IMG/VR virus record: IMGVR_UViG_3300009181_000417
Span: 1 to 21,294 of that record
Length of the DNA stretch: 21,294 bases
Origin: a virus
Reading direction: 5' to 3' (one strand)
The notes under the pieces are model-generated. The model saw only the letters and a list, made by a program, of their open reading frames with translations. It did not search any database and was not told the DNA's origin. Made by a program: the position numbers and the translations under genes. Below are positions 91 to 9,338 of this stretch, piece after piece; position 1 is the stretch's first letter; every line of letters begins with the position of its first letter.

Positions 91-164
91 CGGGGCGTGG
101 GCTAAAGGTGAGCCGCTTGCTTTGGGAGCAAGACATCAAGTGAGTTCGATTCTCACCGCCCCGA
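91..164 (+). tRNA. tRNA-Pro (TGG)
   Basis: Complete cloverleaf. The acceptor CGGGGCG (91-97) pairs fully with CGCCCCG (157-163), with discriminator A164. The D-stem is GGCT/AGCC, the anticodon stem CTTGC/GCAAG with loop TTTGGGA gives anticodon TGG, and the T-arm is GTGAG-TTCGATT-CTCAC. The 3' CCA is not encoded. The anticodon has U34 and would favour CCA codons. Confidence 0.95.
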
Positions 165-216
165 CTTAGTAGGGCACTTGTCAAGTGCAGATAATTGTAG
201 TATCTTTAATCAGTAT

Positions 217-288
217 GGCGTGTTCTTCCATCGGTTAGGAAACCTGACTTTCACTCAGGTAAGACGGGTTCGACTCCCGTACGCGCTA
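217..288 (+). tRNA. tRNA-Glu (TTC)
   Basis: Cloverleaf with acceptor GGCGTGT/ACGCGCT (two wobble pairs), D-stem TTCC/GGAA, anticodon stem CCTGA/TCAGG with loop CTTTCAC (anticodon TTC), and T-arm ACGGG-TTCGACT-CCCGT. The discriminator is A288 and CCA is not encoded. The gap before it holds a small perfect inverted repeat (174-188) of unknown role. Confidence 0.92.
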
Positions 289-346
289 CTTGTAGTACGA
301 TGGGCTGTGGAATCCGGTCAGGCATAATCCTGTTCAATGTATATTC

Positions 347-419
347 CCTCCTGTAGCTCATCGGTCAGAGCAGTCGCCTTATAAGCGACCGGCAGCTAGT
401 TCAATTCTAGCCGGGAGGA
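347..419 (+). tRNA. tRNA-Ile (TAT)
   Basis: Acceptor CCTCCTG/CGGGAGG, D-stem GCTC/GAGC, anticodon stem GTCGC/GCGAC around loop CTTATAA, T-arm GCTAG-TTCAATT-CTAGC, discriminator A419. The anticodon is TAT as encoded, matching the AUA codon. Most bacteria instead read AUA with a CAT-anticodon tRNA-Ile modified to lysidine, so this is an uncommon isoacceptor. CCA is not encoded. Confidence 0.92.
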
Positions 420-442
420 TTTAGAAGTTTGAAAATCGTTAT

Positions 443-513
443 TCCCCTTTCGTCTAACGGCAGGACAGCGGCCTTTGGAGCCGTGAATCGTGGTTCGAAT
501 CCATGCGGGGGAA
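443..513 (+). tRNA. tRNA-Gln (TTG)
   Basis: D-stem GTCT/GGAC, anticodon stem GCGGC/GCCGT with loop CTTTGGA (anticodon TTG), T-arm CGTGG-TTCGAAT-CCATG. The acceptor TCCCCTT/CGGGGGA pairs at positions 1-6, with a T-C mismatch at the seventh pair. The discriminator is A513. CCA is not encoded. Confidence 0.9.
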
Positions 514-515
514 TT

Positions 516-610
516 TAAAACAAATTGTATGAGGGCGGAAAAGTATCCGAGTCCACCCCGCCAGATGTGTAATGTAGGCGACTCTCGGTCCTACCATACA
601 ATTTGTTTTA
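516..610 (+). ncRNA. Candidate structured RNA with kissing hairpin loops
   Basis: A perfect 16-bp helix (516-531 with 595-610) closes a domain with two hairpins. Hairpin 1 is GGCGG (534-538) with CCGCC (558-562). Hairpin 2 is GTAGG (574-578) with CCTAC (590-594), and it abuts the closing helix. Loop 1 holds CCGAG (547-551), complementary to CTCGG (584-588) in loop 2; alternatively GAGTC (549-553) pairs with GACTC (580-584). This implies a loop-loop tertiary contact. It sits between tRNA-Gln and tRNA-Gly but lacks D- and T-arm sequences and is not a tRNA. The strand follows the flanking tRNAs. No known RNA family is recognised. Confidence 0.5.
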
Positions 611-674: not shown

Positions 675-745
675 GCGGTTCTAGTGTAATAGATAGCACG
701 GTTGGCTTCCAGCTAACAAGTCCGGTGCAACTCCGAGGAACCGCT
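675..745 (+). tRNA. tRNA-Gly (TCC)
   Basis: Acceptor GCGGTTC pairs perfectly with GAACCGC (738-744), discriminator T745. The D-stem is GTGT/GCAC, and the anticodon stem GTTGG/CTAAC with loop CTTCCAG gives anticodon TCC. The T-arm is degenerate: the loop reads TGCAACT instead of TTCNANT and the T-stem has a C-A mismatch. A run of six T residues follows at 747-752. CCA is not encoded. Confidence 0.82.
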
Positions 746-759
746 CTTTTTTGATGTAT

Positions 760-4890: not shown

Positions 4891-4905
4891 TAAATTTATT
4901 GATAT

Positions 4906-4975
4906 GTATAGTATAACCGTTCGCAAACCTGTGGACGGTTATATTTATATTAGACCTGCATCACTGGGATGGGGT
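4906..4975 (+). repeat. Duplicated leader element, copy 2
   Basis: Second copy of the 4170-4239 element, starting 15 nt after the methyltransferase stop. The 30-nt hairpin (4913-4942) is identical in both copies; the downstream part, with TATTTATA (4942-4949) and TAGACCTG, differs by a few substitutions and small indels. It forms the leader of the Hsp20 gene. A second possible hairpin follows (GGGGTC at 4971-4976 with GACGCC at 4987-4992, approximate). Confidence 0.75.
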
Positions 4976-5026
4976 CTTTTACCCGTGACGCCTAATATTG
5001 GGGTCACATTATATAGGAGGTCATTT

Positions 5027-5506
5027 ATGACTCGTTTAGTATTTCACCCGTTTAATTCCACTGTATTAAACAACCGAGATAGTTTTATTGGAACTTTTGA
5101 TAAGGTGTTTGATGAACTTACTCGTACCACATTTCCCGAAGTATTTAAGCATATTGGGGCGGAACCGTTTGGTAAATCCGCCTATCCGAAAGTTAATGTT
5201 ATTTCACATGAACATTCGGTAATCATTGAAGCAGAATTAGCTGGATTTACAAAAGAAGATATTAACATTGAAGTAAATGAAGGTGTACTTACTGTCTCGG
5301 GTGGAGCATCGCAAACAACCGAGCAAACTGATAAATCTGTTTATCTACTACGAGAGCTTAAAAGAAGTTCATTTAGTCGCTCCTTTACGCTCGGGGATCA
5401 GTTGGATGCTTCCACCGTTGACGCTTCATTTGATAATGGGTTATTGATTATTTCTATCCAAAAGCTAACAAAGGAGCCAGCAAGTAAAAAGGTTACAATT
5501 AAGTAA
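5027..5506 (+). CDS. Hsp20-family small heat shock protein
   Basis: A 159-aa chaperone of the alpha-crystallin family that holds unfolding proteins as oligomers. ATG 5027 is used because AGGAGG (5015-5020) lies 6 nt upstream; the longer open frame back to 4904 translates the leader repeat. Residues ~50-150 are the alpha-crystallin domain: YPKVNVISHEHSVIIEAEL, GFTKEDINIEVNEGVLTVSG, then SFSRSFTLGDQLDASTVDASFDNGLLIISI, with the conserved GLL ahead of the last strand, ending in a short tail. Hsp20 genes are common in aquatic T4-like phages, where a role in folding phage proteins is supposed. It has its own leader and strong ribosome site. Confidence 0.93.
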   Translation: MTRLVFHPFNSTVLNNRDSFIGTFDKVFDELTRTTFPEVFKHIGAEPFGKSAYPKVNVISHEHSVIIEAELAGFTKEDINIEVNEGVLTVSGGASQTTEQTDKSVYLLRELKRSSFSRSFTLGDQLDASTVDASFDNGLLIISIQKLTKEPASKKVTIK

Positions 5507-5695: not shown

Positions 5696-6751
5696 ATGAA
5701 AGATTTAGTACAATTTAAAACACTAGTATTTGTTAGTGCGATGTTCATTACCGCATGCGCAGCGGTTTTTTCTGTTACGGGAATCGGTAAATTATTTGCG
5801 GGGGCAGCACTATCCGCAATGATAATGGCATCTGCACTGGAATTTGGGAAAATCGTGAGTATTTCATTTTTATACCGATATTGGAAGGAGATGAATCGGG
5901 CACTAAAAATATACTTAGTCATATCCAGTATGGTATTAATGGTTATCACCTCGGCGGGTATTTACGGATATTTATCGTCTGCGTATGCAAAAGTAGCGGT
6001 GGGGCCGTTGAAAACTACTGCTGAAATCTCCACGTTAACATCTCGTGCTCAGACGGTTGACCAAGATATCAACAGAAAAACAACACGATTGACCCAGTTA
6101 AACGAATTGCGAACGCAACAAGAAAATCGGTTGGATAATCTTATCTCTAAAAGTGTGGCGGGTACAAATACAACGATTAAGACCGCACAATCTCAGATGG
6201 CACAATACGATAAAGATGTCCGAGATTTGCAAACCAATATTACAAAGCTGTCCGAAATTCGGGATAGTTTAACATCCGTCAAATCGGTAAAAGAGGTAGA
6301 AATCAACAGTAATTCCGATATTGGAACGTTCGTATATATTGCGAAAATTTTCAATCTTCCGTTGGATACTATTGTGAAATGGTTTACGTTCGTCATTGTA
6401 TTGGTATTTGACCCGCTCGCAGTTGCATTAATAATAGGGTTTAATTTCTTGGTAAAGAAAGATGAATTAATATCTGTTATTATACCCAATATACCAACCT
6501 TATCCGACGAGCCACCGACACGCCTCCCGTTGTCGGTGGGGATACCCGACCCAATAGACGAACCGGAGGTAGTTAATACGTCAGAACCAATTATAGCCCC
6601 AACAAACCCTACCCTAGAGGTGATTAATTCTCGTCGAATAGACGGTCAATACTTTAGCCGAGGAGACTTTGATTGGTCTAAAACTGACCTATGGCAATCT
6701 GACCCAAAAGCCGTAGAATACTATAATTACCGTATTAAAAATAGGACTTGA
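5696..6751 (+). CDS. Multi-pass membrane protein with coiled coil
   Basis: A 351-aa protein from ATG 5696 (GGAG at 5687-5690); the in-frame ATG 5651 lies inside the hairpin. Hydrophobic segments occur near residues 7-30, 34-55, 70-95 and 230-260. Between the third and fourth, residues ~105-210 form a long heptad-like coiled coil (SRAQTVDQDINRKTTRLTQL and following), placed on one side of the membrane, then a cytosol-type tail rich in Pro and acidic residues. The stop codon overlaps the -35 of the next promoter. Large coiled-coil membrane proteins occur in large phages and could act in superinfection exclusion or membrane remodelling, but no known family is recognised. Confidence 0.7.
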   Translation: MKDLVQFKTLVFVSAMFITACAAVFSVTGIGKLFAGAALSAMIMASALEFGKIVSISFLYRYWKEMNRALKIYLVISSMVLMVITSAGIYGYLSSAYAKVAVGPLKTTAEISTLTSRAQTVDQDINRKTTRLTQLNELRTQQENRLDNLISKSVAGTNTTIKTAQSQMAQYDKDVRDLQTNITKLSEIRDSLTSVKSVKEVEINSNSDIGTFVYIAKIFNLPLDTIVKWFTFVIVLVFDPLAVALIIGFNFLVKKDELISVIIPNIPTLSDEPPTRLPLSVGIPDPIDEPEVVNTSEPIIAPTNPTLEVINSRRIDGQYFSRGDFDWSKTDLWQSDPKAVEYYNYRIKNRT

Positions 6752-6804: not shown

Positions 6805-7707
6805 GTGCCTCATCAAGTCGGTTATTGCTGTATCAATACTACACTCAATAAACAAGGCATCACAACAGGTCGTACAATGCGTAAAGCAACCTTTGACCAA
6901 AAAGGTTTAAGTTACGCATCCGAACTCGCATTGCAAAATGCTCACGACCTGTTACGTATTATCCGGTGGAATGTTGACAACAATGTAAATGTATTCCGTA
7001 TGGGGTCTGGTATTTTTCCGTGGGCATCGCAATACGATAATTTTACTAATCTTCCTGATGCAAAAAAAATTACGGATATTCTCCAAGAAGCTGGCAAGTT
7101 AGCTACCGCATCAGGCCAACGCATTACTGCGCATCCTGACCATTTTGTTAAATTAGCATCCACAAAACCCAATGTTGTTGAAAATTCTATTAACGAATTA
7201 CATATGCATTCGTTTGTGTTTGACTTGATGGGACTATCCGGTACCCCATATAACGCTATCAATATTCATGTAGGGATGAATTTCTCAGAAGAAACGGCTG
7301 ACCGGTGGATTACCAGTTATAATAAATTGCATCCTCGGTGTAAGTCTCGTATGGTTGTAGAAAATGATGACAAGGCATCTGGGTTTTCTATAATTCAATT
7401 GTTCACGTATTTACATTCTACGTTAAATATTCCTATTACATTTGATTATTTTCATCACCAATTTCACCCCGATGGGTTGTCTACCCAAGATGCGGCAGAA
7501 CTTGCGGCAGGTACATGGCCAGATGGAGTTACCCCGTTGTTCCATTATAGTGAGTCCAAAAATCTTAACGAAAATGTTATGGGAAATCCACGAGCACATT
7601 CGGATTATGTATTCAAAAAAATTAACGATTTCGGTATGACGTTGGATATTGACCTTGAAGCAAAAGCAAAAGAATTAGCACTATTCAAGTATAGGAGTCT
7701 TGTATGA
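6805..7707 (+). CDS. uvsE: UV damage endonuclease UvsE/UVDE
   Basis: A 300-aa enzyme that nicks DNA 5' of UV photoproducts (alternative excision repair), length typical for bacterial UvsE. GTG 6805 is used with CGGAGG just upstream (6795-6800). Family signatures visible: VGYCCIN at the N-terminus, LLRIIRWNVDNNVNVFRMGSG, ITAHPDHF, INIHVGMNF, MVVENDDKASGF with the metal-binding Glu, ITFDYFHHQFHPDGLS and PLFHYSES, spread over a TIM-barrel fold with three-metal ligands. First gene after a strong promoter and overlapping the glycosyltransferase by 4 nt. It likely repairs phage DNA after sunlight damage. Confidence 0.93.
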   Translation: MPHQVGYCCINTTLNKQGITTGRTMRKATFDQKGLSYASELALQNAHDLLRIIRWNVDNNVNVFRMGSGIFPWASQYDNFTNLPDAKKITDILQEAGKLATASGQRITAHPDHFVKLASTKPNVVENSINELHMHSFVFDLMGLSGTPYNAINIHVGMNFSEETADRWITSYNKLHPRCKSRMVVENDDKASGFSIIQLFTYLHSTLNIPITFDYFHHQFHPDGLSTQDAAELAAGTWPDGVTPLFHYSESKNLNENVMGNPRAHSDYVFKKINDFGMTLDIDLEAKAKELALFKYRSLV

Positions 7708-8312: not shown

Positions 8313-9338
8313 ATGACAAAAACAGCATTAACATACGATGACATTCAACTCGTACCCATTTACAGCGATATTGAATCGCGGACTGCTATTAATCTAAATA
8401 CACAACTTAGTAAAAACTATAAGCTAAAAATTCCATTGATTGCTAGTCCAATGGATACCGTATGTGAAAATGAGATGGCAATTGCGATGGCACATCTTGG
8501 TGGGGTCGGGTGTATTCATAGATTTATGACTATCGAAGAACAGCGTGCACAGGTGAATACCGTATCAAATGCGATATATGCAACATATCCAATGTCAATG
8601 TACACTCCAATTATGGCAGCAATTGGTGCCAATGGTGATTATCTGGAACGAGCGCAAGCGTTAGTAAATGCTGGCGCAAACGTTATTTTGATTGATGTAG
8701 CACATGGTCACCATATTTATGTTAAGACGGCAATTCAACAGTTGAAAAAGACATTACCATCCCACGTAGATATTATTGCAGGGAATGTAGCAACTGCTCA
8801 AGGTGCAGAAGATTTGGAAAATTGGGGAGCCGATGCAATTCGGGTTGGCGTGGGTGGTGGTTCTTTATGCTGCACTCGGATTAAGACCGGATTTGGCGTT
8901 CCCAACGTAACTTCACTAGAAGATGCGGCTCGCACGGTGAAGGTTCCAGTGATTGCCTGTGGTGGTATTCGGTCAAGTGGGGATATCGCAAAGGCACTCG
9001 CGGTTGGCGCAAGTTCGGTCATTCTCGGCTCACTATTAGCAGGGACGAAGGAAGCACCTGGACAGATTATTGAGAACGCCAGTGGACTGTATAAACGATA
9101 TCGTGGTGCGGCATCGTTAGAAACCAAGATTACCCATAACCAGCATCAGCGAAACGTTGAGGGTGAATCTACCGTAGTACCATTTAAGGGTGGCGTAAAA
9201 TTTATTATTGAAGGATTGGAAGATGGACTGCGGTCGGCATTATCGTACGCAGGAGCACGGAACCTATCAGAATTCGCACCAAAATATGTGGCGGTCACTA
9301 ATGCAGGTATGCGTGAGGCAAAACCACATCTTCTCTAG
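8313..9338 (+). CDS. IMP dehydrogenase / GMP reductase family enzyme, CBS-less
   Basis: A 341-aa TIM-barrel enzyme of purine nucleotide metabolism, preceded by GGGAG. Signatures: LTYDDIQLVP at the start, IPLIASPMDTVCE (residues 40-52), the glycine-rich phosphate site, and the loop GGGSLCCTRIKTGFGVP with catalytic Cys at 186 (Cys187 replaces the usual Thr). Later VPVIACGGIRSSGDIAKALA, YRGAASLE and VPFKGG. The C-terminal NAGMREAKPH resembles IMPDH more than GMP reductase. The ~120-residue CBS pair found in most bacterial IMPDHs is absent (usual length near 490). IMPDH would make XMP for GTP synthesis; GMP reductase would run GMP to IMP. The choice is not settled by eye, as the flap Arg-Tyr of IMPDH is not obvious. 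Confidence 0.9.
   Translation: MTKTALTYDDIQLVPIYSDIESRTAINLNTQLSKNYKLKIPLIASPMDTVCENEMAIAMAHLGGVGCIHRFMTIEEQRAQVNTVSNAIYATYPMSMYTPIMAAIGANGDYLERAQALVNAGANVILIDVAHGHHIYVKTAIQQLKKTLPSHVDIIAGNVATAQGAEDLENWGADAIRVGVGGGSLCCTRIKTGFGVPNVTSLEDAARTVKVPVIACGGIRSSGDIAKALAVGASSVILGSLLAGTKEAPGQIIENASGLYKRYRGAASLETKITHNQHQRNVEGESTVVPFKGGVKFIIEGLEDGLRSALSYAGARNLSEFAPKYVAVTNAGMREAKPHLL

Follow-up and report, generated by a model that had tools for sequence, protein, structure and literature searches.

The RNA element at positions 516-610 of the window, by which we mean the whole 21,294-base stretch of a virus record with T4-kind baseplate wedge genes, is on sequence comparison very probably a divergent relative of the skipping-rope RNA (Rfam RF02924). 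It lies within a tRNA array, its closing helix beginning about 1 nt after tRNA-Gln, and it lacks one of the four helices of the family. An earlier note had proposed a new structured RNA with kissing hairpin loops inside a tRNA array. The structured RNA, its kissing loops and its setting in the array are borne out, whereas the matches to RF02924 and to a family model of our own (R1) rule out a new RNA class, and the pseudoknot is one that Rfam already draws for the family (PMC7779021). The three helices and the complementarity between CCGAG and CTCGG are present as the note described them, and the element is laid out as follows, the helices being named P1, P2, P3 and P4 in family order.

516-531, plus strand: 5′ strand of P1, the closing helix, 16 bp and perfect; P1 is long and covarying in the relatives too
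530-541, plus strand: conserved core TGAGGgCGGAAA, made up of the junction AG, the 5′ strand of P2 and AAA of loop 1
534-538, plus strand: 5′ strand of P2, GGCGG
539-557, plus strand: loop 1, 19 nt, against 8-9 nt in 68 relatives
547-551, plus strand: kissing strand CCGAG of loop 1
558-562, plus strand: 3′ strand of P2, CCGCC
563-573, plus strand: 11-nt linker with no helix, replacing hairpin P3
574-578, plus strand: 5′ strand of P4, GTAGG
584-588, plus strand: kissing strand CTCGG of loop 2
590-594, plus strand: 3′ strand of P4, CCTAC
595-610, plus strand: 3′ strand of P1, directly on P4 (linker 0), as in skipping-rope RNAs

The Rfam RF02924 model matches positions 524-602 end to end (1-80 of 80) with a score of 32.2 bits and an E value of 7.2e-6 for 361 bases searched with all 4227 Rfam families, or 2.6e-6 for 131 bases; the gathering cut-off of 36.7 bits is not reached. 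Pattern searches of viral and genome contigs supplied canonical members, nine viral loci being verified with Rfam, and 24 of them, with the window excluded, were aligned for the covariance model R1. This independent model also recovers the kinship: it scores positions 518-608 at 34.4 bits (E value 4e-7), the top rank in a search space of 996,577 bases of phage DNA that includes 80 other phage loci and consists mostly of relatives of the window phage, and the runner-up scores 14.5 bits. Further pattern searches returned phage members with scores of 33 to 64 bits, so the window falls at the low end of a continuous spread. Among highly conserved positions located on a 5′ strand or left unpaired, the element agrees with the family at 19 of 27 (p about 1e-6), and its core TGAGGgCGGAAA corresponds to TGAGGNCGGAAA of the skipping-rope family. 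Two other matches, one to mir-2807 on the minus strand (16.7 bits against a cut-off of 54) and one to mascRNA (14 bits against 42.5), were rejected as chance.

With RF02924 the window copy shares the helix order P1-P2-(P3)-P4, the TGAGGNCGGAAA core and the CC..CCA end, a P1-P2 linker of 2 nt and a P4-P1 linker of 0, complementary strands for the kissing pair between the P2 and P4 loops, and a position among phage tRNAs. The differences are that P3 is missing, that the kissing pair is 5 bp long and has different letters, and that two conserved motifs are each retained at only four of six letters: GAGATG, which runs into P4, is GTAATG in the window, and GGATAC, which spans the 5′ strand of P4 and its loop, is GGCGAC. 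All 68 relatives have the closing C-G pair of P3, a hairpin that the element lacks, and loop 1 of the element runs to 19 nt; we therefore describe it as a variant related to RF02924 rather than an ordinary member. A group of phage-type skipping-rope RNAs with GGAAC.GGCA, found in Lactococcus 949-group phages, Bacillus phage BSP38 and two further loci (L268 and L322; loci are given by L numbers throughout), resembles the window copy in that P3 is short or minimal in many of them, same-strand tRNA genes adjoin, and a tmRNA lies nearby in two (L270, L303). These RNAs differ from it in retaining the closing C-G pair of P3 and GAGATG, and in the letters of both loops.

We found no close relative of the exact window form by blastn in phages, by an exact pattern in viral contigs, by looser patterns, or by the family model across 30 related virus records. 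In four related phages the syntenic region has no skipping-rope copy, a small ORF filling the gap after tRNA-Gln, and the neighbouring protein (1014-1481) used as bait yielded no relatives.

The window copy stands out against shuffled sequence. The window contains one perfect inverted repeat of at least 16 bp within 150 nt, against none in 100 dinucleotide shuffles, and the RNA fold has a z score of -5.14, with 0 of 200 shuffles equally stable. All four helices (P1, P2, P4 and the loop-loop helix) consist of Watson-Crick pairs only. The loop-loop match carries little weight by itself: a 5-bp Watson-Crick match arises in 9% of loop shuffles (p = 0.09), and an alternative 5-bp register, GAGTC (549-553) with GACTC (580-584), can be read from the sequence. 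We therefore reject the pairing of 547-551 with 584-588 as stand-alone evidence and rest it on the pseudoknot that is a feature of the family. The energy minimum is a different interior fold, at -32.3 kcal/mol against -27.0 kcal/mol for the claimed nested helices, under an energy model without pseudoknots; the loop-loop duplex adds about -6.1 kcal/mol. The claimed fold of 516-610 is supported because the element is homologous to the skipping-rope family.

Covariation among the homologues, which the earlier note had put forward as a check, is clear in the 68 skipping-rope relatives. In their alignment 91% of cells pair, both sides change at 24 of 30 pairs, and the covariation score is 0.559, compared with 0.16 for shuffled alignments and no more than 0.10 when partners are slid. 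Since the nested helices of R1 guided the alignment, these counts lean towards them, but the kissing pair lies outside the model. One kissing column pair (30/108) is C-G in 42 sequences, U-A in 20 and U-G in 5.

The P1-P2 linker measures 2 nt, P2-P3 1 nt and P3-P4 4 nt in all 68 relatives, in an alignment fitted to the model, and the P4-P1 linker is 0 nt; these values, 2, 1, 4 and 0, are those of Rfam's tRNA structure line (RF00005). The family resembles tRNA further in that a 5-bp last arm sits straight on the first helix and its loop pairs with that of the second arm; in tRNA, it is the D and T loops that join these two arms. Unlike tRNA, skipping-rope RNAs have neither tRNA sequence motifs nor CCA, and their P1 is longer than 7 bp. 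The window copy also has no third arm, with three helices against the four of the cloverleaf layout in 68 of 68 relatives, and neither the Rfam tRNA model nor ARAGORN calls a tRNA at 516-610. The earlier note's remark that the RNA has no D or T arm holds for its letters, but the family layout has the cloverleaf linkers. The likeness is one of secondary structure, from which we infer that an L shape, or mimicry of tRNA, may follow. The family was reportedly first described by Weinberg and colleagues, and the literature searched mentions it only in passing. Neither the P3-less form nor the tRNA-like linker pattern is described there, though the linker pattern may already be stated in the original description.

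The array and its surroundings contain the following features.

91-165, plus strand: tRNA-Pro(TGG), the first tRNA of the array
217-289, plus strand: tRNA-Glu(TTC)
347-419, plus strand: tRNA-Ile(TAT)
442-514, plus strand: tRNA-Gln(TTG), CCA not encoded, ending about one base 5′ of P1
630-658, plus strand: TTGACA-17-TATACT, a sigma-70-like promoter by consensus alone (11 of 12 matches), lying 3′ of the element and 5′ of tRNA-Gly
675-746, plus strand: tRNA-Gly(TCC), the next downstream tRNA
1651-1995 (stretch 1623-1998), plus strand: tmRNA with tag ANNTLALAA, in the same neighbourhood as the element

A permuted-tmRNA model scores the overlapping stretch 1623-1767 at 49.9, slightly above its cut-off of 47, and the tmRNA tag of related phages is GNYNLALAA. 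A terminator scan lists no terminator-like site in 1-2100, and no T-run follows P1 of the window copy. Just 3′ of tRNA-Gly, a perfect inverted repeat at 760-793 (AAAGGACTTTA...TAAAGTCCTTTTT) looks like a terminator of the array, though the scan does not list it.

Where a viral locus has tRNA genes, the skipping-rope RNA usually adjoins one on the same strand: the distance is 100 nt or less in the window and in L012, L123, L268, L270, L303, L320 and L322, and 197 nt in L260, while the tRNA is far away in L318 and L327. Three of these loci are Lactococcus phages that form one group: L303 is LW81, L270 is phiL47 and L260 is 949. P1 starts 1 nt 3′ of tRNA-Asp in LW81, next to tRNA-Asp in phiL47 and 1 nt 3′ of tRNA-Leu in L322, so that a spacing of about 1 nt after a tRNA recurs in three unrelated phage groups, the window included. 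Elsewhere the RNA lies between tRNAs (L268), overlaps the 5′ end of tRNA-Met (L123), sits between tRNA-Met and tRNA-Arg (Bacillus phage BSP38) or follows the tRNAs downstream (Brevibacillus phage Jenst); the copies in LW81, Jenst and BSP38 pass the Rfam cut-off. The linkage is not universal, as most skipping-rope loci on viral contigs have no tRNA gene on the sequence examined. Further copies occur in prophages and satellites of Streptococcus, either close to the lysin or attachment site or flanked by small genes, so the skipping-rope RNA is independent of tRNA genes. Of 69 copies, 29 have a TTTTT run within 40 nt 3′ of P1 where 8.3 would be expected, an excess suggesting that many copies make their own transcript ends.

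Skipping-rope RNAs are often paired, in tandem or close together (L011:48-246, L317:3006-3202, L329:8059-8238, L316:1505-1722, L176, L209), with one copy more diverged than its partner. At L009:802-1024 a skipping-rope RNA adjoins SpF41, an sRNA of Streptococcus whose GGTTCGAATCC hairpin resembles a T arm. The Drum RNA (RF02958) is likewise a small phage RNA, which shares the tRNA cluster of L322 (4289-4397) and in L008 is present as two copies (5703-5981) about 1 kb upstream of a skipping-rope RNA; it is nevertheless a separate family, and the window element does not match it.

From these observations, we think it somewhat probable that the window element, as a divergent skipping-rope RNA, acts in trans as a small phage RNA produced from the tRNA array. 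It would be co-transcribed with the upstream tRNAs, an RNase Z-type cut after the discriminator base of the CCA-less tRNA-Gln would leave its 5′ end, and the long P1 would shield both ends of the RNA; we give this route, taken as a whole, about an even chance. Two facts make release by tRNA 3′ processing plausible: tRNA-Gln, whose CCA is not encoded, is separated from P1 by about one base, and two other phage groups repeat that spacing. The next step is more tentative. P1 on P4 would correspond to the acceptor on the T arm and the kissing loops of P2 and P4 to the D loop on the T loop, giving a tRNA-like body that could bind a host protein that handles tRNAs by the elbow and either occupy that protein or be carried by it during infection. 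P3 occupies the position of the anticodon arm; that it is lost in the window and shrunken in other phages hints at the elbow, rather than an anticodon, as the working part. More broadly, we speculate that skipping-rope RNAs could be tRNA-shaped mimics from phage arrays which, once released by tRNA maturation, engage or distract host factors that grip the elbow, candidates being processing, modification or defence nucleases; the window copy might then be a minimal form of the mimic, with the arm in the anticodon place gone, a proposal we put forward just as guardedly. Phage tRNAs reportedly act as supplements or decoys against tRNA-cutting defences (PMC13096335), which sets a precedent for the neighbourhood and not for the skipping-rope RNA itself. 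The stable non-tRNA RNAs of T4, which the earlier note had offered as a precedent, found no confirmation in the paper examined, and the argument can dispense with them.

Other readings of the same facts must be weighed. An unrelated structured RNA could have converged by chance on the skipping-rope core, which would account for a score under the Rfam gathering cut-off, for the missing P3 and several missing conserved letters, and for kissing letters that are wholly different; we regard this as highly improbable in view of a full-length match 20 bits above the runner-up in 1 Mb, the agreement at conserved positions, the helix order and P4-P1 linker of zero shared with the family, and a tRNA-adjoining place like that of accepted members. 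The same losses, together with the lack of any relative of the same form and the absence of the element from sister phages, could instead mark a decaying copy whose function is gone. Decay, however, would hardly have left P1 perfect over 16 bp and P2 and P4 perfect as well, nor is it expected to yield kissing strands that have been re-lettered and yet remain complementary, and we consider it unlikely.

The element could also work in cis on the tRNA operon, signalling processing or termination: P1 would halt transcription or exonucleases after tRNA-Gln, and a separate promoter would serve the downstream tRNA. The promoter-like site directly 3′ of the element, the length of P1 and the T-runs that follow many relatives all fit such a signal, but the terminator scan and the missing T-run after P1 in the window speak against it, a terminator has no need of a conserved core and kissing loops, and relatives also occur in phage regions without tRNA genes; we judge it no likelier than decay. 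The purine riboswitch is built of stacked helices with a parallel arm and kissing loops, and the P3-less copy, in which two 5-bp arms with kissing loops meet P1 at a three-way junction, would recall that layout with P1 and P4 stacked and P2 alongside. A metabolite-binding aptamer is nonetheless the least credible reading and a very remote one, as no gene is placed for control, the next feature being tRNA-Gly with its own promoter-like site, and as Rfam types the skipping-rope family as an sRNA gene.

The skipping-rope RNA is catalogued without a known function, and the window copy, a divergent phage copy that the Rfam cut-off misses, separates the dispensable part of the structure (P3) from the parts retained (the P1/P4 stack, P2 and the kissing loops). 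The survey yields a testable idea, namely that tRNA arrays release a tRNA-shaped RNA, and the family is present in phages in culture, the Lactococcus 949 group and Bacillus phage BSP38.

The window also carries phage-borne genes for IMP dehydrogenase (8313-9338), the UV endonuclease UvdE (6805-7707) and an HSP20 chaperone (4904-5506). In sister phages another structured RNA lies right 3′ of tRNA-Gly (L102:6053-6148, L098:497-593, L115:6046-6140). It has no Rfam match and is a candidate unnamed RNA, with a closing helix of 14-15 bp, three hairpins, a fold z score of -4.7 and a core that is nearly invariant across the three phages.
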